Part shown: positions 7,589 through 24,266 of the stretch, in pieces
How positions within the stretch are numbered: position 1 is the stretch's first letter
How the letters are laid out: each line of letters starts with the position of its first letter
Origin: Anaerolineaceae bacterium
GTDB lineage: Bacteria > Chloroflexota > Anaerolineae > Anaerolineales > Anaerolineaceae
Assembly (NCBI GenBank): GCA_002702705.1
Contig: PABH01000021.1
Span: 1 to 33,631 of the forward strand
DNA: 33,631 bases
Direction of reading: 5' to 3'
Position numbers and translations under genes: made by a program
Notes under the pieces: generated by a model
Told to the model about the DNA's origin: nothing
Databases searched by the model: none
What the model saw: only the letters and a program-made list of their open reading frames with translations

Positions 7589-9016
7589 TTATTTTGGCAC
7601 TTTAGGATCGGCCCATTCGGTATGGAAAATACCTTCCCGGTCAATTCGGCGGTAGGTATGCGCACCAAAATAATCACGCTGCGCCTGGGTTAAATTAGCA
7701 GGCAGCCGTTTGGTACGGTACGCATCAAAATATGCCAGAGAAGAACCAATCGCTAACATGGGAATACCCAGATTGATTCCAGCGGTTACGATTGATCGCC
7801 ATGCTTCTTGGCGCTCCTCAATCGCGAGGATAAAACTATCATCCATTAATAAATTAACCAAATCCGGATTTTTTTGATAGGCATCCATAACATCGTTTAA
7901 CAATTCAGCACGAATAATACAACCAGCCCGCCAGATTTTCGCTATCTCGCGCAGGTTTAGATGATAGTCATATTCTTCAGACGCGATTTTTAACATACCC
8001 ATTCCCTGAGCATAGGCTGTGATTTTACTTGCATACAGCGCATCATGTGCAGCTTGAATGAAAACCGCTTTATCCGTATTTACGGAAATTTTTGGTCCCG
8101 AAATGAATTCCGATGCCCTTACCCGCTCTTCTTTCAGTCCGGAAAGAATCCGGCTTTCGACAGCAGCATTAATGGTTGGAATGGGTGCGCCGATATCAAA
8201 AGCGTTTTGACTGGTCCATTTACCGGTTCCTTTTTGTTTCGCTTCGTCTAAAATCAAATCAATCAAAGGTTTACCTGTCAGTTCATCGTTTTTCTTAAAA
8301 ATATCAGCCGTTATTTCAATTAAATAACTTTTTAAGGGGCCTTCATTCCAGGTGGAAAAAACTTCAGATAATTCCTCATTACTTAACCCTAGTCCACGGT
8401 GCAGCAGATCATAAATTTCAGCAATCATTTGCATATCGGCATATTCGATGCCATTGTGAACCATCTTAACATAGTGTCCTGATCCACGTGGACCAATATG
8501 AACAACACAGGGTTCTCCATCATCTGCTTTGGCAGACATCGCTTCTAAGATTGGCTTTAACGCTTCCCAAGCCGCAGGCTGCCCGCCTGGCATCATACTC
8601 GGTCCCCATAAAGCACCTTCTTCACCACCGGAAACGCCCATACCAACAAAATTTAAGCCCAGGGCTTCCAATTTTGTAGAACGACGTTCTGTATCCAAAA
8701 AATAGGAATTTCCACCATCAATCAGAATATCACCCGGCTCCATAAAGTCAATTAAGCCATTAATGGCGCTGTCCACAGCAGGACCAGCAGGAACCATTAG
8801 TAAGATTCGGCGTGGTTTTTCCAAAACTGCCATTAACGTTTTTGGAGAGGTTACTGAAAAGATGTTTTGACCTGCTGCTTTGCCTTCTAAAAAAGCGGTA
8901 ACTTTTTTCTCATCCAAATCCAAACCCGCCACAGTATACCCATTTCGAGCCATATTTAACGCTAAACTTTGCCCCATCACACCTAACCCTACCAGCCCAA
9001 TTGAAGCTTTCTTCAT
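7589..9016 (-). CDS. gnd: 6-phosphogluconate dehydrogenase (decarboxylating), probably NAD-preferring
   Basis: The 475-residue length is that of the long (GndA-type) family. The enzyme converts 6-phosphogluconate to ribulose-5-phosphate and CO2. Visible are the nucleotide loop GLVGLGVMGQSLALN (7-21), GMGVSGGEEGALWGPSMMPG (125-144), catalytic Lys184 in HYVKMVHNGIEY with Glu191, and the KQKGTGKWTS signature. At the end of the second strand, where E. coli Gnd has Asn-Arg-Ser contacting the NADP 2'-phosphate, this protein has Asp33-Leu34-Asp35. An acidic residue there normally favours NAD. The ATG follows TAGGAGGAAGG. It is the last gene of the minus-strand operon, 54 bases after the LarA homologue, which suggests catabolic use for sugar acids. 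Confidence 0.92.
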   Translation of the reverse strand: MKKASIGLVGLGVMGQSLALNMARNGYTVAGLDLDEKKVTAFLEGKAAGQNIFSVTSPKTLMAVLEKPRRILLMVPAGPAVDSAINGLIDFMEPGDILIDGGNSYFLDTERRSTKLEALGLNFVGMGVSGGEEGALWGPSMMPGGQPAAWEALKPILEAMSAKADDGEPCVVHIGPRGSGHYVKMVHNGIEYADMQMIAEIYDLLHRGLGLSNEELSEVFSTWNEGPLKSYLIEITADIFKKNDELTGKPLIDLILDEAKQKGTGKWTSQNAFDIGAPIPTINAAVESRILSGLKEERVRASEFISGPKISVNTDKAVFIQAAHDALYASKITAYAQGMGMLKIASEEYDYHLNLREIAKIWRAGCIIRAELLNDVMDAYQKNPDLVNLLMDDSFILAIEERQEAWRSIVTAGINLGIPMLAIGSSLAYFDAYRTKRLPANLTQAQRDYFGAHTYRRIDREGIFHTEWADPKVPK

Positions 9017-9070
9017 TCCTTCCTCCTAATCCACCCGATCATTCGGTGGTTTTTTAATCAGAATTATCTG

Positions 9071-10321
9071 TTATTGTTCCTTAATACGATACAACATTTC
9101 ACCGGCATGCGGGACAATCAGTATATTCTCTTTTTCCTTTTGTTTCCAATCTTCAAAAGAAATACTTGCCGGGTCCAGATAACCCAAATTAATGGTATCA
9201 CACCGTTGTTTGGAAATTCCGGTCGCAAGTGTAACCTGAATTCGAGGGGTTTCCAGACCAGTTTTTTCATCATAAAAACCCTTTCCTTTTACGTGCGTTG
9301 AATGTGCAAGAACTCCACCCGGATAATGTGAGAATTTTGTCCACTGTTTCAAAAAATAATCCCGACAATGATATCCAATTGTATCAATGATCGCTCCATG
9401 GGTATAACTTACTTCATTGATATGAGGCGCGTAAATAATTACCTCACCCCCATCGGCGATGACAGGCTCCATCTTATACATGCCTTTGGCAGCTGTCCAT
9501 AGGTCATCGTACATTTCCGGCATAACCGCGATAACACGCTTCACCGATTTATCAATATAAACAATATGGACTTTTGCCGAAAGTTGGGCTGCTTCCTGCC
9601 AGGCTGTTTTGGCATCACCATAAAACAAACCATTCATGCCGTGTTGTGTTACAACACTAGTAAAACACAATGTTGGGGTTGGAATAAGACTTGCCGCTTG
9701 GTCAATTACTGCCCTAACGGGGGTATAGCCGGCACCAATCACTTGATAAGAAGTGATTAATGCACCCAACCAATGCGTTAAGTTAATAATCTCCGGGCCT
9801 GCAATTCCCGGGAAAAAATATTTATTACCACCGGAAAAACCAACCACCTCATGCGGAAAGACAGGCCCACAAATAATGATCTGCTCATATTCAAGCACTT
9901 TTTTATTTAAAGTTACTGGTATCGATTCATTTAAGCGGCCTTCACTGATTTCAGCAATGTCGTGTGCTGGAATTTTACCTAAATTAATAAATGTATCCGG
10001 TTTTTCCCATTCATGATTATAGATATGAATGCCTTCAACCAACCCATTGATTACTTGTTGCCCAACCAAATTGCTTAATTGTTTATCATTCATGGCCTGG
10101 TGGGTGCCCAATGCCACTAAATAATCCATCTGTTTAACTTGTGGTTTCAGGATTCGTTTAAAAATATCAAAAAACAAGGCCAGCGGCATGGTTCGGGTCC
10201 CATCCGGAATCAGAATTAACACTCGTTTTCCGGTTAATTCGACTGACTCTAATCCCGTTCTTACAATTTCTTCGATTTGTTCCTGGTTCAGATAATCGTC
10301 CGGTGATCCATATCCAGCCAT
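9071..10321 (-). CDS. LarA-family nickel-pincer 2-hydroxyacid epimerase; predicted gluconate/mannonate 2-epimerase
   Basis: The 416-residue protein belongs to the lactate racemase LarA family, whose members use a nickel pincer nucleotide (NPN) covalently held by a Lys. All the key residues of LarA are present: PDGTR (Asp40, Arg43), LGTH (His74), FPHEV (His157), GFSGGNK (Lys167) and LTH (His183). The 157-167-183 spacing (10 and 16) equals that of His174-Lys184-His200 in Lactiplantibacillus LarA. Members of this superfamily include reported D-gluconate 2-epimerases. Lying between a fructuronate reductase and a 6-phosphogluconate dehydrogenase, the predicted reaction is D-mannonate to D-gluconate; this specificity is inference. 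Larger-substrate racemases of the family are the alternative. No larB/larC/larE cofactor genes are in the window. Start: AAAGGG site, then ATG. Confidence 0.85.
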   Translation of the reverse strand: MAGYGSPDDYLNQEQIEEIVRTGLESVELTGKRVLILIPDGTRTMPLALFFDIFKRILKPQVKQMDYLVALGTHQAMNDKQLSNLVGQQVINGLVEGIHIYNHEWEKPDTFINLGKIPAHDIAEISEGRLNESIPVTLNKKVLEYEQIIICGPVFPHEVVGFSGGNKYFFPGIAGPEIINLTHWLGALITSYQVIGAGYTPVRAVIDQAASLIPTPTLCFTSVVTQHGMNGLFYGDAKTAWQEAAQLSAKVHIVYIDKSVKRVIAVMPEMYDDLWTAAKGMYKMEPVIADGGEVIIYAPHINEVSYTHGAIIDTIGYHCRDYFLKQWTKFSHYPGGVLAHSTHVKGKGFYDEKTGLETPRIQVTLATGISKQRCDTINLGYLDPASISFEDWKQKEKENILIVPHAGEMLYRIKEQ

Positions 10322-10361
10322 CGTTTTCCCTTTGAAGAAGATTTTTTAAAGCTTTTTCTTT

Positions 10362-11195
10362 TTACACACCACTGAAAGCGGAAAAACCACCATCGACTGG
10401 TACTACAATGCCGGTAACAAATTCGGAAGCCGGGGAAAGCAGCCACAAAATAGTGCCTGTCAGATCACCAGGGTTACCAAATCGTCCCATAGGAGTGTGG
10501 TTTAGAATAGCTTTTCCGCGCGTGGTTAATTCACCCGTTTCTTTTTCAGTCAACAAAAATCGATTCTGATCCGTTAAGAAAAAGCCAGGTGCAATCGCAT
10601 TCACCCGAATTTTAGGAGAATACTCCTGCGCCATGTGAACGGCCAACCATTGTGTAAAATTACTTACCCCAGCTTTTGCCGCAGAATAGGCTGGAATCCG
10701 GGTTAACGGACGGAAAGCATTCATCGAGGAGATATTAAGAATGCTACCTTCACCCTGTTCCGCCATAACAGCGCCGAAGACCTGTGAAGGTAAAATCGTG
10801 CCCATCAGGTTAAGATCAAAAGTGATTTGCAAAGCCTCTTGAGGAAGATCAAAAAAACGGTGTTCGGGATTGGTCGTAGCTTTGGGGTGATTACCCCCAG
10901 CAGCATTAATTAAGATATCAATTTTTCCCCAGCGTGAAATAATATCTTTTTTATTTCTTTCCAATATGGCTTTATCTAACACATCGGATTGTAAATATAA
11001 CACCTCACAATCAAGTGAAACAAATTGATCAGCTAAGGTCATCGGGAGGTTTTCCACCCGATCAAGGATTGAAATATTAGCTCCACACTTTGCCAAAGTT
11101 AGGCATATTTCGCGACCCAGCAACCCAGCGCCGCCTGTAATCACAACGGATTTACCGGAAAAGTCAAACCAATTCATAAATTCATTTTTTATCAT
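10362..11195 (-). CDS. SDR-family oxidoreductase, predicted D-mannonate oxidoreductase (fructuronate reductase)
   Basis: This 277-residue classical short-chain dehydrogenase has the cofactor loop TGGAGLLG (20-27), NAAG (97-100), Asn129, catalytic Ser156/157 (NISSMNAF), and Tyr170-x3-Lys174 (YSAAK). Asp45 at the end of the second strand favours NAD(H). It resembles the SDR-type D-mannonate oxidoreductases found beside uxaC in Gram-positive and Thermotoga-like uronate operons (Bacillus YjmF type), which reduce D-fructuronate to D-mannonate. The specificity is inferred mainly from its place directly after uxaC (11 bases after its stop). The start at 11195 has a TAGGATGG ribosome site; an internal ATG seven codons on is possible but lacks one. 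Confidence 0.82.
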   Translation of the reverse strand: MIKNEFMNWFDFSGKSVVITGGAGLLGREICLTLAKCGANISILDRVENLPMTLADQFVSLDCEVLYLQSDVLDKAILERNKKDIISRWGKIDILINAAGGNHPKATTNPEHRFFDLPQEALQITFDLNLMGTILPSQVFGAVMAEQGEGSILNISSMNAFRPLTRIPAYSAAKAGVSNFTQWLAVHMAQEYSPKIRVNAIAPGFFLTDQNRFLLTEKETGELTTRGKAILNHTPMGRFGNPGDLTGTILWLLSPASEFVTGIVVPVDGGFSAFSGV

Positions 11196-11206
11196 AAACC
11201 ATCCTA

Positions 11207-12634
11207 TCAGTATTCAAGCCGGTATGCTTTTTTTGCCAGGTTATATGCCAAATCAACCACCATTTCTTGCGCATCAGTTTCATCCACAATGCCGCGAACC
11301 AGCAAACCTGCTACCCAATTGGCACTCATTCGGCGCCAGACAGCATGACGCACCGGAATGGAAAGAAAAGCACGGGTATCATCATTAAACCCAACTGTAT
11401 TATATAAACCAGCAGTTTCCATCACTTGATCAAAATAACGGGTTATTCCATTTAAACTATCATGGAACCACCAGGGTGGACCCAATTTTAAGGCAGGGTA
11501 ATGCCCTGCTAGTGGTGCCAATTCACGGGCATACGCACTTTCATCAAGGGTAAAAAGGATTAACTGAAACCGGCTATCGTTTCCAAATCGATTTAAGAGC
11601 GGTTTAATGGATCGGGTAAACTCGGTCTGTAAAGGAATATCAGCTCCTTTATCCGGACCAAAAACAGCATACAATAATGGGTTATGGTTCCGCGAAGAAC
11701 CAACATGCCACTGCATAACCAACCCATCTTCGATACTCATTCTCGCAAATTCCATTAACATGTGACCGCTAAACAATAATGCCTTTTCCGGTGTAACTGC
11801 TCCTTGTAAGGCATGTTGAAAAATTTCCTCCACCTCAAAAAGAGAAATTTCGGTTGTAAATGCCGTTTCAGTAGCGTGGTCAGCTGCGACAGCACCATGG
11901 TCTTTAAAATATTGGCGGCGTTCTTCTAATGCCTGTATAAAACGATGATATGAATTAATTTCATAACCACACACATCACTTAAAACTTGAATATTTTTTC
12001 TCCACCCGGGTTGAGTTATATCTACCAATTGGTCAGGCCGAAAAGTAGGCAAAATCCGCCCATGCCACCCCGACTCTTGAATTAATCGATGTTGTTCCAG
12101 GTTATCCGTGGCTGTGTCCGTTGTGCATAATACTTCAATATGAAATTGATCATATAAAGCTCGTGGAGAAAATGCTGGTTCTTTTAATTTTTTCTGGATG
12201 TGCTCATAAATGGTGTGTGCCGTGTCTGAATTTAACGGTTGATCCACATCAAACACCGTTTTTAAAGATTCCTTCAGCCAAATACCACTTGGGGTACCTC
12301 TGAACAAATAAAAATGATCCGCAAAACACTGCCAAATTTTATGATGGTCAGTTTCCACTGGTTCACCATCCAAACGATTAATCCCTAACGTTTCCAGGGG
12401 AATTCCATAAGCATACAGCATCCGTAAAATATAATGATCAGGCAAAATGAAGAGTTCGGTTGGACTTCCAAAACGAGTTTCAGGATCACTAAAAAGTTTT
12501 GGATCAACGTGGCCATGGGGTGCAATGATCGGCAGGTCTCTCACAAAGGAGTAAAGAGCAGCAGCCGTTTTTTTCTGAGCTTCACTCGGACCAAAATAGC
12601 GGTCTTTGGTTAAAACAGGGTTGGGGATTTCCAT
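11207..12634 (-). CDS. uxaC: Uronate isomerase
   Basis: The 475-residue protein matches glucuronate/galacturonate isomerase, which converts D-glucuronate to D-fructuronate or D-galacturonate to D-tagaturonate. The N-terminal metal site APHGHVDPKLFSD (about 38-50), the ...GSPTELFILPDHYILRML block, and the C-terminal block around GFNDDTRAFLSIPVRHAVWR are visible. The length is right for the family (about 465-475). It is the first gene of the operon, with GGAGAG before the ATG and a leader of roughly 60 bases from the predicted promoter inside the 30-bp palindrome. The neighbouring mannonate-type reductase and the absence of a tagaturonate reductase favour glucuronate as the substrate. Confidence 0.94.
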   Translation of the reverse strand: MEIPNPVLTKDRYFGPSEAQKKTAAALYSFVRDLPIIAPHGHVDPKLFSDPETRFGSPTELFILPDHYILRMLYAYGIPLETLGINRLDGEPVETDHHKIWQCFADHFYLFRGTPSGIWLKESLKTVFDVDQPLNSDTAHTIYEHIQKKLKEPAFSPRALYDQFHIEVLCTTDTATDNLEQHRLIQESGWHGRILPTFRPDQLVDITQPGWRKNIQVLSDVCGYEINSYHRFIQALEERRQYFKDHGAVAADHATETAFTTEISLFEVEEIFQHALQGAVTPEKALLFSGHMLMEFARMSIEDGLVMQWHVGSSRNHNPLLYAVFGPDKGADIPLQTEFTRSIKPLLNRFGNDSRFQLILFTLDESAYARELAPLAGHYPALKLGPPWWFHDSLNGITRYFDQVMETAGLYNTVGFNDDTRAFLSIPVRHAVWRRMSANWVAGLLVRGIVDETDAQEMVVDLAYNLAKKAYRLEY

Positions 12635-12655
12635 TCACTCTCCAAAACAGCGAAC

Positions 12656-12683
12656 TTGACAAAACTATCAATCTCGCTACAAT
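12656..12683 (+). promoter_or_regulatory. Predicted promoter of the LacI-family regulator gene
   Basis: TTGACA (12656-12661) and TACAAT (12678-12683) are 16 bases apart. The -10 box is the left end of the 30-bp palindrome, so the regulator would repress its own synthesis when bound. Confidence 0.7.
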
Positions 12684-12707
12684 AATGTTAGCGCTAACAT
12701 TATTGTA
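12678..12707. promoter_or_regulatory. LacI-family operator: perfect 30-bp palindrome
   Basis: Positions 12678-12692 are the exact reverse complement of 12693-12707. The core is TGTTAGCGCTAACA (12685-12698), with the central CG-containing symmetry typical of LacI/GalR operators. It lies between uxaC and the divergent LacI gene. Both predicted -10 boxes form the outer ends of the palindrome, so one bound dimer should block both promoters. Confidence 0.9.
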
Positions 12708-12730
12708 CAAATGCGGATTTTGTTTGTCAA
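12702..12730 (-). promoter_or_regulatory. Predicted promoter of the uxaC-SDR-larA-gnd operon
   Basis: On the minus strand TTGACA (12730-12725) and TACAAT (12707-12702) are 17 bases apart, a near-consensus sigma-70 promoter. The start site would be near 12695, inside the operator. This promoter faces the lacI promoter, so their early transcripts overlap. Confidence 0.75.
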
Positions 12731-12753
12731 GTTGGTTTTCTAAAAGGATACTA

Positions 12754-13767
12754 TTGAAAAAAAATAGCCCTACTCTCTCCGATGTCGCTCTTAAAGCCGG
12801 TGTGTCAATGATGACCGTCTCCAGAGTGATTAATAACAAGGGAAAGGTCAAACCCGAAACCCGAGAGCATGTTCTAAAAATTGCAGCAGAGGTTGGTTAT
12901 CGTCCAAACTACATTGCCCGCAGTTTAGCAACCAAACGCTCGACAACAATTGGTTTGGTGGTACCCGACATTACAAACCCTTTCTTCTCAGAGATCGCAA
13001 AAGGAGTAGAAGACGAAGCCTATCGTCTGGGATATAACGTCTTTTTATGTAATTTTGATGAAAATCCTGAACGAGAATTTGACGTTTTAACTTCTTTAGC
13101 GGAAAAACAAGTTGATGGTATTGTTTTGTGCAGTTCTCGCCAAAACAACAAACAGCTTTATCACTCATTGGGTCTGTTTAAACATGTTGTTTTAATCAAC
13201 CGGCAATTACCAGCACCATCCCATACTATTCAATCTCTGATTTTAGATGACTTTAATGGGGCCAAACTAGCGGTTGAGCATCTGCTTAGCCACAAAAGGA
13301 AACGAATTGTTTTGCTTTCAGGGCCTAAACAATCACACAGTGCCTTTCAAAAAGAAAAAGGGTACTTAGCCGCTCTGAAAAAACATAATATTGCGCATGA
13401 TCCGGAACAAATCAAACATTGTTCACCCACAATGATCTGTGGTAAAGATACCATGTCCATGCTTCTTAAAAATGATCCAACCATTGATGCTGTCTTGGCC
13501 TTTAATGACTTGCTTGCAATTGGTGCCATGCTGGCTTGCCAGGAATTCGGTAAAATCATTCCCCAAGAGCTGGAAATCATTGGGTTTGATGATATCCCAC
13601 TCTCGAAACTCATCATACCCGGTATAACAACCCTGACGTATCCAAAAAAAGAAATTGGCTCAATTGCCATGAAGATCATTTATCAAATGATGGATCAAGA
13701 TATCTCCCTCGATTTTCCAAAAACTTTTGCACCGCAATTTATATTTCGGCAAAGTTCACCGAAATAA
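12754..13767 (+). CDS. LacI-family transcriptional regulator of the uronate operon
   Basis: From a TTG at 12754 the protein has 337 residues, the usual LacI/GalR length. The N-terminal helix-turn-helix is at about 7-27 (TLSDVALKAGVSMMTVSRVI), followed by the hinge (YRPNYIARSLATKRS) and a periplasmic-binding-like effector domain (GLVVPDITNPFFSEIAKGVE, ... IDAVLAFNDLLAIGAM, ... IIGFDDIPLS). An AAAAGGA ribosome site six bases upstream of the TTG fixes the start; the longer frame would extend into the operator and add residues before the DNA-binding domain. It is divergent from uxaC across a palindromic operator, so it most likely represses uxaC and itself and is released by a uronate or an intermediate such as fructuronate or mannonate. 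The effector is inference. Confidence 0.9.
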   Translation: MKKNSPTLSDVALKAGVSMMTVSRVINNKGKVKPETREHVLKIAAEVGYRPNYIARSLATKRSTTIGLVVPDITNPFFSEIAKGVEDEAYRLGYNVFLCNFDENPEREFDVLTSLAEKQVDGIVLCSSRQNNKQLYHSLGLFKHVVLINRQLPAPSHTIQSLILDDFNGAKLAVEHLLSHKRKRIVLLSGPKQSHSAFQKEKGYLAALKKHNIAHDPEQIKHCSPTMICGKDTMSMLLKNDPTIDAVLAFNDLLAIGAMLACQEFGKIIPQELEIIGFDDIPLSKLIIPGITTLTYPKKEIGSIAMKIIYQMMDQDISLDFPKTFAPQFIFRQSSPK

Positions 13768-13922
13768 AAGTTAGGGTAAATCAATACATATAGATAAACC
13801 CGTATTCTAATAATGAATTTATCTTTATAACTCTTCAAACGCTGTCAATCTTCATATCAAAAAAATGCAGTACGAAGTTTGAACGATGACAAATACAACT
13901 TCTCTATGGTTTTGTGGCATAC

Positions 13923-13928
13923 TATAAT
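13923..13928 (+). promoter_or_regulatory. Candidate -10 box of the hutU transcript
   Basis: A perfect TATAAT lies 35 bases upstream of the hutU ATG. No good -35 box stands at the right distance (TTCTCT at 13900-13905), so confidence is limited. Confidence 0.4.
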
Positions 13929-13962
13929 TAATGAAATAAAAGATTTTCATTCGGAGGTAATA

Positions 13963-15618
13963 ATGACTGGACCACGACCAATTCACGCTCCACGGGGTAC
14001 ACAGCTTACTTGTAAATCTTGGCAAACGGAAGCCGTTTACCGCATGATTCAGAACAACCTTGATCCGGAAGTAGCTGAAAAACCGGATGAATTAGTTGTC
14101 TATGGTGGGCGTGGTCAGGCAGCCCGTAGTTGGGAAGCCTTTGACGCGATTTTGGACTCCTTAAAAAGCCTTGAAGACGATGAAACCCTGTTGGTGCAGT
14201 CTGGTAAACCGGTAGCCATATTTAAATCTCATACCAACGCTCCCCGCGTATTAATCGCAAATTCCAACCTGGTGCCGCATTGGGCAACCCAGCAGCATTT
14301 TGATGAATTATCCGCCAAGGGCTTAATCATGTACGGTCAAATGACGGCTGGTTCTTGGATTTACATCGGTACCCAGGGTATTTTGCAGGGCACGTACGAA
14401 ACACTCGGTGCTTTAGCCCACCAAAAAGGATGGGGATCATTAAAAGGCAAATTTACTCTGACAGCTGGTCTGGGAGGGATGGGTGGTGCCCAACCCCTGG
14501 CAATTACCATGAATGAAGGTGTCGCTTTATGTGTTGAAGTTGATCCGGAACGAGCCCGCCGCCGCCATGAAATTGGTTACGTGGATGTGTTGGTTGACTC
14601 ATTGGATGAAGCACTGGAATTGGTTAACCAGGCTGTGGCGGAAGAAAAAGCACTTTCCATTGGCTTGATCGCCAATGCCGCTGATATTTATCCCGAACTC
14701 GTCCGGCGAGGAATAACACCGGATGTCGTCACAGACCAAACTTCAGCCCATGATGTATTAATGTATGTCCCGAGTGGGTTAACTGTGGCAGAAGCCGATC
14801 AATTACGGCAATCTGACCCGCAAACCTATGAAGAACGCTCCATGCAATCCATGGCAGTGCATGTACAGGCCATGTTAGATATGCAAAAACAAGGGGCGGA
14901 AGTCTTTGATTACGGCAATAACATCCGCCAGCGTGCTTATGATCATGGTGTTAAAAATGCATTTGATTTCCCCGGATTCGTTCCAGCTTATATCCGCCCC
15001 TTATTCTGTGAAGGCAAAGGTCCCTTCCGTTGGGTGGCTTTGTCCGGTGATCCGGAAGATATTTATAAAACCGACCAGGCCATTAAAGAACTCTTTCCTG
15101 AAGATGATCATCTCCATCGTTGGTTGGATATGGCCAAAGAAAAAATCCCCTTCCAGGGCCTACCCGCTCGAATTTGTTGGCTGGGATATGGCGAACGGGT
15201 CAAAGCTGGGTTAAAATTTAATGAAATGGTTAAACAAGGCATTTTAAAAGCACCGATTGTAATTGGGCGCGACCATTTGGATGCCGGATCGGTAGCCTCA
15301 CCCAACCGTGAAACGGAAGGTATGCTGGATGGCAGTGACGCCATCTCGGATTGGCCAATTCTGAATCTACTCACCAACGCGATTGGTGGAGCGACCTGGG
15401 TTTCCTTCCATCACGGCGGCGGCGTAGGCATTGGTTTCAGCCAACACGCTGGTATGGTCATCGTCGCGGATGGCACAGAAGATGCAGCCCAACGGCTGGA
15501 ACGTGTGTTAACCACCGATCCTGGAATGGGTGTTGTCCGCCACGTTGATGCAGGGTATGATAAAGCAATCCAGGCTGCTAAAAAACACGGCATCCGCATT
15601 CCGATGATGAAAGGATAA
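13963..15618 (+). CDS. hutU: Urocanate hydratase
   Basis: The 551-residue protein is urocanase, which hydrates urocanate to imidazolone propionate in histidine breakdown using tightly bound NAD. Visible blocks include [53 protein letters not shown] (NAD loop), [15 protein letters not shown] with the conserved Cys, [20 protein letters not shown] and [17 protein letters not shown]. The length is normal for the family. The ATG at 13963 is preceded by TCGGAGG; the longer frame adds 28 residues with no family similarity. No hutH, hutI or hutF/hutG is seen in the window, so the other pathway genes must lie elsewhere or urocanate is imported. It is followed closely by two membrane-anchored proteins. 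Confidence 0.95.
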
Positions 15619-22148: not shown

Positions 22149-24266
22149 TTAATTGTCCTGTGGTTCTAATCCCTGCCTTCGGCGGGTCTGTTGAATATAC
22201 TCTTCCAACATCTGTTGGGTGGGCGGCAGGAAACCACTCATCACCAAATAACCCGGGGCCCAAAAATCGTTGGCCGGGTTGTTTACCAGTAGTTCAGGCT
22301 GGTTCTTAAGTATACGCCGGGAGGTCTCTTCTCTTAAAATACGAACCATATAACCCGGTGATACTGTCGGTGGCACTTGAACAGTCCATTGAATATACCG
22401 CGGCCGGATGGATATCCGTTCAAGCCGCCAACCATAAGCGACACACAACTGCGGCAGCCACTCACCCAAACACTCAGCTAACTCACCTGCCAAAAATTGG
22501 GTCGGAAAACGTGGTAACAAAACACTGGTGTAATTTAAGCTAGAAACACCCGGTGAATGTGGTTCTAAAATTGGTTTCGGTGCACCGGATGCGGAACGAG
22601 GCGTTGTATCTTCCAATGGATTAATGGGCGGGAGATCTGCTGGAATAGTACGAGATTCTTTAAAATCGCGGCGAACAACCTGGGTTGGTTCCAAGGCAGC
22701 TTTGTCCAATTGATCTTCTCTATCTTCAGCCCCTATGGGAGAATCCGATTCAACGGAACCTTTGAACAATTCCTGTTTTTTAATCATCTCTGGCAAAGGT
22801 TCCAATAACTCGTCCGATTCCTCTGCAGATTCGAATTTTGAAAAAGAGGAGGTTTTTAATTCATTTTTTTGGTTAATTAAATCTGACAGTGAAAGAAGGG
22901 AATCATCCGCTGCCGCTGCGATTGGTGTCGCTTCCGGTTGCGTTTTTTTCACTTCAGGTTCCTCCGCCAACGAATTTAATACATCACCAAAATCTGTTGG
23001 TTTTTGTTCATCCCAGGGGAACACCAAATCCGCTAGAGGGTCTGTATCGGGTTCAATTTCATCCAATACATTAATCTCATCCTCATCCTCATCCTCTGTG
23101 GGCATGGTCAGCTCGGTTTCCTGCATTTCCGTCACAAAGGGTTCCGCATCGGCTATAAAATGATCCGTTTCCAAAAAAGGACTGATCGAATTAAATTCTT
23201 CATCCTGACTGGCTTTCAATTCTTCAACCTTCAGCGCTGTTACCTCTTGTGAAACAGGATCCACCTGCCATTGATCCATAACGGGGTCTATCAATTCAGT
23301 TTCATCATCATTCGGATCCGGATTCGGCATTGAAGCCAGCAGTTCTTCCAGATTAATCATTTCAGCTTCATCCAGGTCATCAAAATCATCTTCCCCGTCC
23401 ATCCAGTCCAAATCCTCTGCCAATAAGACCGGGGTTTCAAAGTTTGTAGAATCACTTATTTTGGTCGCAGATTGCTGCTGTGCCATAAATTTATCTTGAT
23501 TTACCATCCAGCCAGCAGGCGGATTTTTAATCTTACGGATGACAGTAGAAGTATGCAGCCTGGCGGAAGTGAGTGAAATCGTCCGTTCATACACTACCAC
23601 CAAAATCAAATCTGCATTAATCGCTGTGGCATAAAACAGATAATCTTTTCCACCATCTTGTAAACGTTTAAATCGGACCACATCACTTCGCCGGTCTGCA
23701 TTCCAATGCTGCATGATAATATTCATGATGTGGCTGGGAGAATTGGCATCAACATCACCAACAAAGGCAAAAGGTGCTTGATCCTTCACCAGTAAAATAG
23801 CTGCCGCTTCGCTTTCTTCTAAAATCAAATTCAGAATATATTGGTAACGTTTTGCTTCTGCATCTTCCGGAAGGGTTCGATCATCATGCTCCGCAAAAAT
23901 CGCGGCTTGTTTTAATAAAGTCTCTAAGATCTCCTGCAAATCTGGCAGGTAAAATGGTTTTTTCAAGAACGCATCCGCAGATAAAGCAGCCACTGCCGGA
24001 TGATCTGCTCTGTTATCGGGAGGAAAAACAACCAATTTTAAATTTTTATCTTGTTTTTTTAAATCACCCACTGCGGAAACAAGCGGCTGATCCGGTAAGT
24101 CGGCATCCAAAATCACCAGATCAAACCCCTGCTGATCTGGCAGCTCTTGCAATTCTTCCTTCGTTAAAACCACCTTAAGGTTATATTTACGGCTTCCGGT
24201 TAAACTATGGCGAAGTAAATCTGCAAAAGCTTGATGGGAACTGGCGATCAGAACCTTATTTTCCAC
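22149..24266 (-). CDS. Receiver-like / roadblock-like / acidic linker / Y1-transposase-like fusion protein
   Basis: The 705-residue protein starts with GTG. Residues 1-120 have the receiver fold (LVILDADLPD with Asp54, FLKKPFY with Lys103), but the N-terminal acidic pair is replaced by Ser-Ser and the switch Ser/Thr by Pro. Residues about 140-270 look like a roadblock/LC7-type domain (ILNLILEESEAAAILLVKDQ ... DYLFYATAINADLILVVVYE). An acidic, low-complexity linker covers about 290-570. The last 130 residues read like the IS200/REP-associated Y1 transposase fold: LAECLGEWLPQLCVAYGWRL, VPPTVSPGYMVRILREETSR, NDFWAPGYLVMSG, LEEYIQQTRRRQG. The HUH metal motif is absent (RPRYIQWTV in its place), although a Tyr is kept in the YIQQT helix. 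The likely role is nucleic-acid binding by a domesticated domain. No ribosome site is evident. Confidence 0.75.
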   Translation of the reverse strand: MENKVLIASSHQAFADLLRHSLTGSRKYNLKVVLTKEELQELPDQQGFDLVILDADLPDQPLVSAVGDLKKQDKNLKLVVFPPDNRADHPAVAALSADAFLKKPFYLPDLQEILETLLKQAAIFAEHDDRTLPEDAEAKRYQYILNLILEESEAAAILLVKDQAPFAFVGDVDANSPSHIMNIIMQHWNADRRSDVVRFKRLQDGGKDYLFYATAINADLILVVVYERTISLTSARLHTSTVIRKIKNPPAGWMVNQDKFMAQQQSATKISDSTNFETPVLLAEDLDWMDGEDDFDDLDEAEMINLEELLASMPNPDPNDDETELIDPVMDQWQVDPVSQEVTALKVEELKASQDEEFNSISPFLETDHFIADAEPFVTEMQETELTMPTEDEDEDEINVLDEIEPDTDPLADLVFPWDEQKPTDFGDVLNSLAEEPEVKKTQPEATPIAAAADDSLLSLSDLINQKNELKTSSFSKFESAEESDELLEPLPEMIKKQELFKGSVESDSPIGAEDREDQLDKAALEPTQVVRRDFKESRTIPADLPPINPLEDTTPRSASGAPKPILEPHSPGVSSLNYTSVLLPRFPTQFLAGELAECLGEWLPQLCVAYGWRLERISIRPRYIQWTVQVPPTVSPGYMVRILREETSRRILKNQPELLVNNPANDFWAPGYLVMSGFLPPTQQMLEEYIQQTRRRQGLEPQDN

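Follow-up and report, generated by a model that had tools for sequence, protein, structure and literature searches.

A stretch of 33,631 nucleotides from an Anaerolineaceae bacterium of the phylum Chloroflexota (contig PABH01000021.1; referred to below, at its full length, as the window) carries four adjacent minus-strand genes which quite probably constitute a LacI-controlled glucuronate operon that bypasses the Ashwell branch, with its 2-keto-3-deoxygluconate (KDG) intermediate, by means of a mannonate-to-gluconate epimerase. Glucuronate would be isomerised to fructuronate by UxaC, and fructuronate would be reduced to D-mannonate by a short-chain dehydrogenase/reductase (SDR). A LarA homologue (LarAH) of the GntE type would then invert C2 of D-mannonate, by a hidden hydride transfer on the nickel-pincer nucleotide (NPN), to yield D-gluconate. 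A gluconokinase encoded elsewhere in the genome would form 6-phosphogluconate, from which 6-phosphogluconate dehydrogenase (Gnd) would produce ribulose-5-phosphate and CO2, and this last step could give back the reducing power that the SDR consumes. Such a route had been proposed in a sequence-only reading of the window. It is the best explanation of the enzyme set, because the gluconokinase is present in the genome, UxuA gives no match there, and gntK joins the four genes in two relatives. The combined route is, however, not new as biochemistry, since it was proposed by Rodionova in 2012 and the enzyme was demonstrated in 2020 (PMC7583248). New here are a perfect 30-bp palindrome between facing promoters and a LarAH-bearing genome in which no larB, larC or larE was found.

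The operon and the gluconokinase

The operon is headed by uxaC, the uronate (glucuronate) isomerase gene (11207..12634, minus strand; ORF of 475 aa). It is followed on the same strand by the gene for the SDR, a fructuronate reductase/D-mannonate oxidoreductase of the PRK08277 subfamily (10362..11195; 277 aa), by that for LarAH, a putative NPN-dependent D-mannonate/D-gluconate 2-epimerase (9071..10321; 416 aa), and by gnd, coding for decarboxylating 6-phosphogluconate dehydrogenase (7589..9016; 475 aa). The ORF coordinates agree exactly with the tandem arrangement described earlier, with gaps of 11, 40 and 54 bases. The identities then given to uxaC, the mannonate-oxidoreductase SDR and gnd also stand, each product scoring above its NCBIfam cut-off: UxaC reached 507.3 bits against the glucuronate isomerase model (cut-off 387; 286.7 bits against Pfam UxaC), the SDR 362.7 bits against PRK08277 'D-mannonate oxidoreductase' (cut-off 281), and Gnd 689.9 bits (cut-off 413). 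LarAH carries the Pfam domain Lar_N (86.3 bits, cut-off 23.3). SDR homologues next to LarAH in relatives show 55-68% identity. Neither KDG kinase nor 2-keto-3-deoxy-6-phosphogluconate aldolase is encoded within the operon, and no genome-wide search for either was made.

The window's own genome (G000) is 96.77% complete, and the gluconate kinase expected outside the operon is present in it. A GntK-type gluconokinase is encoded on another contig (G000:C8:45382-45846), with 181.0 bits against TIGR01313 (cut-off 113.75). UxuA (PF03786) had no match in this genome, with 5 of 14 control genomes positive; enolase-superfamily mannonate dehydratases were not searched for. FGGY kinases were also considered as gluconokinases and rejected, as none of the nine proteins scanned passed the FGGY gluconokinase cut-off; their best families were xylulokinase, glycerol kinase and ribulokinase, with none for one protein.

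Identity of the LarA homologue

By several measures, LarAH resembles a D-gluconate 2-epimerase more closely than it does lactate or malate racemases, as had been anticipated. Its best NCBIfam match is NPN_18_hexonate, with 196.5 bits against a cut-off of 500, so that by this cut-off LarAH counts as a relative of the equivalog and not as a member. All 18 members of the class alignment match the same model; the best E was 2.6e-58, and no malate racemase model did better than 6.5e-31. When the sequences of solved structures were searched with LarAH, the top match was 4NAR, nearly full length and at 227.2 bits, whereas lactate racemases scored at most 34.2 bits and malate racemase 32.4 bits. An AlphaFold2 model built from the 18-sequence alignment (pLDDT 93.6) again had 4NAR as its top Foldseek match (TM 0.91, 32% identity); the remaining 18 chains of LarA type that reached E 0.001 or better gave TM 0.55-0.79 and 15-19% identity. 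The 4NAR structure is that of Thermotoga maritima GntE2 (Q9WYS3), for which others have reported the conversion of D-mannonate to D-gluconate, with kcat of 197 per s and KM of 17 mM on D-mannonate (PMC7583248).

Residue roles were assigned from the GntE2/LarA numbering given in PMC7583248. LarAH has the catalytic residues D40, H74, H157 and K279 and the NPN-binding residues R43, K167 and H183, among them the four (His74, His157, Lys167 and His183) named previously at these positions. Moreover, E158-V159 and W275 fit the EV/S substrate loop and the alpha-11 W that are described for LarA groups 18-20 (PMC7583248). The catalytic D, H, H and K and the NPN-binding R, K and H are invariant in 55 of 55 aligned GntE-type sequences, which comprise the window, 31 LarC-positive and 23 other LarC-negative genomes; two loci were excluded because their ORFs are incomplete. 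The malate-type LarA of the same genome keeps the catalytic and NPN residues and differs from LarAH at E158, V159 and W275. Bit scores, residues, models and fold together rule out a lactate or malate racemase identity, and assignment of LarAH to the GntE type, as a putative D-mannonate/D-gluconate 2-epimerase, appears well supported by sequence and predicted structure.

In a tree of 57 rows, of which GntE2 and one malate-type sequence are the outside rows, the window's LarAH falls into a 6-row set (100/99) with genomes from four other families. GntE2 lies among the class sequences, but its position is unsure, since its branch is very long (4.5 changes per column) and the bootstraps were unsettled.

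Neighbourhoods in relatives

Genes were counted within 5 kb of LarAH and on its strand in 80 named loci and 56 loci of the class sample, some genomes being in both sets. The class loci are not a random choice, as part of them was picked for gntK or LarC status, and all counts are lower bounds, since several loci end close to LarAH. The SDR was the most frequent neighbour (53/80 named and 32/56 class loci), followed by gnd (34/80 and 24/56), UxaE (22/80 and 14/56) and UxaC (15/80 and 8/56). UxaE matches (PF16257) of 472-528 bits were obtained for 5 of 10 proteins scanned. A PfkB-type kinase was present in 13 named and 6 class loci, and PFP in 9 and 11. For gntK the corresponding figures were 0/80 and 11/56, the latter from loci partly chosen for it; a less biased figure is that, among the 16 class genomes carrying both genes, gntK and LarAH are no more than 5 kb apart in 11.

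The four-gene arrangement is also met in related genomes: UxaC, SDR, LarAH and gnd occur together in 10 of the 136 named and class loci, and their order is kept in nine of the ten, with UxaE, HAD or gntK in between in some. The order seen in the window is found also in Anaerolinea thermolimosa IMO-1 (L124) and in L048. All five genes, including gntK, are present in L072, where they are contiguous, and in L063, where two ORFs separate LarAH from gnd.

Another conserved neighbour of the SDR and LarAH is a HAD-family protein of about 298 aa (22/80 named and 13/56 class loci; for example L057:9583-10479, L054:10069-10968 and L092:8384-9280). A kinase identity for this protein, which lies between the two genes, was rejected, as PF13419 (HAD_2) was over cut-off in all three proteins scanned; this match, of 27-30 bits, is to a generic HAD family only. 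The PfkB-type kinase, found in L108, L110, L111, L116, L121-L123, L126, L128, L136, L149, L161 and L164, often adjoins gnd, and in genomes without GntK it could be the enzyme that phosphorylates gluconate. G253, a genome of the window's family, has in its LarAH cluster a HipA_C-domain protein (L061:11420-12352) flanked by the SDR and a PfkB-type kinase. Clusters of LacI, UxaC, SDR and LarAH were seen in cyanobacteria of the Nostoc/Calothrix type (L159, L165, L170, L172, L174 and L176-L178), and a GntE-type glucuronate route may therefore exist there; all eight of these genomes have LarC.

Missing nickel-cofactor genes

NPN is reported to be made by LarB, LarE and LarC (PMC11770544). In the window's genome we found no candidate for larC, and the best matches for larB and larE (24.8 bits, cut-off 175, and 35.7 bits, cut-off 150) were far too low. 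The same genome encodes a second LarA homologue (L046:8961-10217, on G000:C55) of the LarAH5 malate-racemase type, with 442 bits against a cut-off of 462. Of the nickel-pincer epimerase deduced from the window, the catalytic and NPN-binding residues thus stand, but a working enzyme of this kind is not secured here, because none of the three biosynthesis genes came over cut-off. Their lack may reflect an assembly gap. To work in this bacterium, LarAH would need some source of NPN.

The lack is not peculiar to this genome. In a class sample of 298 genomes, 141 matched LarAH at E 1e-20, and 136 were retained after five weak matches (E above 1e-35) had been dropped; some of the matches retained are fragments. 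LarC is lacking in 55 of the 136. LarB and LarE were searched for in 80 of the 298 genomes, namely these 55 and 25 others. LarB was over cut-off in 1/55 LarC-lacking genomes, 22/22 LarC-positive ones and 0/3 lacking both LarAH and LarC, and LarE in 6/55, 21/22 and 0/3, respectively. All three genes are lacking in 49 of the 136 genomes: in 38 of 96 with a completeness of 90% or more, 25 of 60 with 95% or more and 14 of 33 with 97% or more, for which mean incompleteness is 4.8, 3.2 and 2.0%; these counts do not amount to a probability, because the genomes are related. In some families every sampled LarAH genome lacks the whole set (f22, 6/6; f37, 4/4; f45, 4/4; f48, 3/3; f2, 3/3), whereas in others none does (f38, 0/15; f47, 0/5). 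A LarAH clade of 16 rows (100/100) comes solely from LarC-lacking genomes, and one of its members, G020, has LarB and LarE. The LarC-lacking label requires eight changes on the tree, or four if only starred branches are trusted. Across genomes, LarAH is weakly linked to LarC (81/136 vs 69/162) and to the UxuA family (46/136 vs 34/162), but not to gntK.

We tentatively suggest, with rather less than even confidence, that the GntE-type LarA works in whole lineages which are unable to make NPN, either on NPN or a precursor that is handed from one bacterium to another and scavenged like a vitamin, or through a second, unknown route of synthesis. Several observations speak against such a puzzle. 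Of the 80 named genomes found, 50 were searched, and LarC was present in 39 of these; all 11 without it are titled metagenome-assembled genome (MAG), and all six not so titled, five of them cyanobacteria, have it. In other species of the window's genus LarC is present in 5/7 and lacking in 2/7. The larE, larB and larC genes are clustered in G058, G118 and G289, so that one assembly gap could remove all three; they are apart in G013, G015, G168 and, within the window's own family, G253.

Neighbour clustering in 55 loci, restricted to clusters present in at least four of them, gave no candidate for an NPN transporter, several clusters being unannotated. In these loci no neighbour cluster was markedly enriched beside LarAH of LarC-lacking genomes except one holding gntK (11/23 vs 2/32 other loci, part of them picked for gntK); in the full set of 136, a gntK no more than 5 kb from LarAH occurs in 9/55 LarC-lacking and 2/81 other genomes. 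The reverse situation, larB, larE and larC without larA, is reported for about 15% of genomes (PMC11796402). Our literature search, judged by titles and abstract openings, found no report of NPN salvage, and among the matches listed there was none of LarA without LarB, LarC and LarE.

The regulatory region

Divergently from the operon runs a gene for a LacI-family regulator with LacI helix-turn-helix and periplasmic-binding-like domains in Pfam (12685..13767, plus strand). Between the two lies a perfect 30-bp palindrome (12678..12707; core TGTTAGCGCTAACA) of 15-nt arms, 100% complementary and with no spacer, which is a probable LacI-family operator. The listed ATG of lacI sits inside this palindrome, and translation more probably starts at TTG 12754. 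A sigma-70-like promoter, TTGACA-17-TACAAT (12702..12730, minus strand), leads into uxaC and another, TTGACA-16-TACAAT (12656..12683, plus strand), into lacI, each with 11 of 12 consensus bases. The two are near mirror images and point towards each other; a -10 box lies at either end of the palindrome, and there are outer 11-bp inverted arms at 12653-12663 and 12723-12733. LacI bound to the palindrome would be expected to repress both. Only these two best, symmetric sites are relied on, because the promoter scan as a whole found 15 sites vs 15.0 in shuffles, that is, no excess.

No second copy of the palindrome is present in the window at up to three mismatches of its 16-nt core. The exact 14-bp core recurs upstream of an SDR-LarAH pair on one contig of a Caldilineae MAG (L146/L028), and the operator is not widely shared, since an exact match is absent from the remaining 185 of 187 loci. 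Control of gntK by the same operator was rejected after 19 kb around that gene (L045) had yielded no copy of the core.

Immediately downstream of lacI lies urocanate hydratase, hutU (13879-15618, plus strand; 961.5 bits). Farther along the window, an ORF of 705 aa (22149-24266) has N-terminal similarity to response regulators and, towards its C-terminus, a match of the IS200/IS605 transposase type (53 bits, cut-off 55).

Discussion

On the reading that we favour, D-mannonate would be the substrate of LarAH and carbon would flow from glucuronate to ribulose-5-phosphate. A number of findings weigh against it. The gluconokinase gene is on another contig and the palindrome core is absent from its surroundings; a GntK-type kinase is over cut-off in only 16 of 136 LarAH genomes, no more than expected, and in the 80 named loci the 5 kb around LarAH never contain gntK, so that for the majority of relatives the kinase step is not accounted for. 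In 46/136 genomes LarAH is accompanied by UxuA-family proteins, and five of the seven genomes with a full-length UxuA match above 400 bits also carry LarAH. The score of LarAH against NPN_18_hexonate is well below that required, its nearest solved relative, GntE2, is only 32% identical, and the NPN biosynthesis genes were not found in its own genome.

UxaC can also act on galacturonate, and LarAH could epimerise another hexonate or an aldarate, for instance one derived from galacturonate, and be only loosely coupled to gnd. The window's LarAH belongs to no curated equivalog, and for GntE1 of Corynebacterium glutamicum a KM of 120 mM for D-mannonate is reported, the authors suspecting another substrate (PMC7583248). 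We regard this explanation as unlikely, as the recurrent neighbours of LarAH (SDR, gnd, UxaE, UxaC and gntK) fit the conversion of mannonate to gluconate better than that of any other hexonate considered. The order of the epimerase and kinase steps might also be reversed, with mannonate phosphorylated first and the resulting 6-phosphomannonate epimerised to 6-phosphogluconate by LarAH or by a different protein, for which cell extracts of Lactobacillus suebicus provide a precedent (PMC6978723). Proximity of LarAH and a GntK-type kinase in 11 of 16 co-occurring genomes fits either order, but the nearest characterised relative, GntE2, uses unphosphorylated D-mannonate (PMC7583248), and a kinase-first variant seems to us very unlikely.

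The missing larB, larC and larE could mean that LarAH is idle for want of its cofactor, in an operon that is silent or decaying. Against this, the ORF is intact with all its catalytic and NPN-binding residues, the promoter-like sites and the palindrome are kept, and the same residues are invariant in 23 other aligned LarAH proteins from LarC-lacking genomes, which is not a pattern of decay. An exception is G280, also LarC-lacking, where the LarAH match is only a fragment with a stop. Idleness of the enzyme therefore seems very unlikely, and the glucuronate-to-ribulose-5-phosphate route through a GntE-type epimerase is retained as the probable one.

If so, the GntE route of Thermotoga extends to glucuronate catabolism in Chloroflexota and, if gene neighbourhoods are a guide, also to Acidobacteriota and to cyanobacteria of the Nostoc type, and the operon provides candidate genes for a redox-neutral path from glucuronate to ribulose-5-phosphate. 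The point most deserving attention, above the operon's route of a known type, is the occurrence of NPN-type enzymes in genomes where genes for NPN biosynthesis were not found, by which sharing of NPN between bacteria or its synthesis in another way becomes a testable question.

The proposal of epimerisation of mannonate to gluconate followed by gluconokinase and 6-phosphogluconate dehydrogenase is credited to Rodionova 2012 (PMC7583248, PMC6978723), together with the note of gntE homologues in Lactobacillus, Acidobacterium and Terriglobus (PMC6978723). A eukaryotic GntE has been reported as well (PMC11770544), and our literature search found no paper on a mannonate/gluconate epimerase in Anaerolineae. 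D-Gluconate 2-epimerase activity is described for C. glutamicum GntE1 (LarAH19) and Phytophthora LarAH15 (PMC7583248, PMC11770544), two LarA-superfamily enzymes that share this presumed activity with the window's LarAH.

The closest known system is the UxaR locus of T. maritima, aldH-pelB-gnd-uxaRED-gntEK, in which, as in the window, a LarA-family GntE joins mannonate to gluconate (PMC3750489). The oxidoreductase and gnd are also shared, while gluconokinase is part of the T. maritima locus and is encoded elsewhere in the window's genome; the placing of UxaE beside LarAH in relatives recalls gnd-uxaRED-gntEK (PMC3750489). T. maritima starts from galacturonate/pectin, employs UxaE and a regulator of the GntR family, and also keeps kdgA-kdgK-uxuB-uxuA; its uxaC belongs to a different regulon, that of KdgR (PMC3750489). 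In the window, by contrast, the regulator is of the LacI type and uxaC heads the operon, and UxuA was not found in the genome. The isomerase-phosphoketolase hybrid pathway of L. suebicus likewise joins UxaC and fructuronate reductase to 6-phosphogluconate and Gnd without KDG, and like the route proposed here it is redox neutral to ribulose-5-phosphate; it differs in that the kinase-first variant was demonstrated there (PMC6978723).

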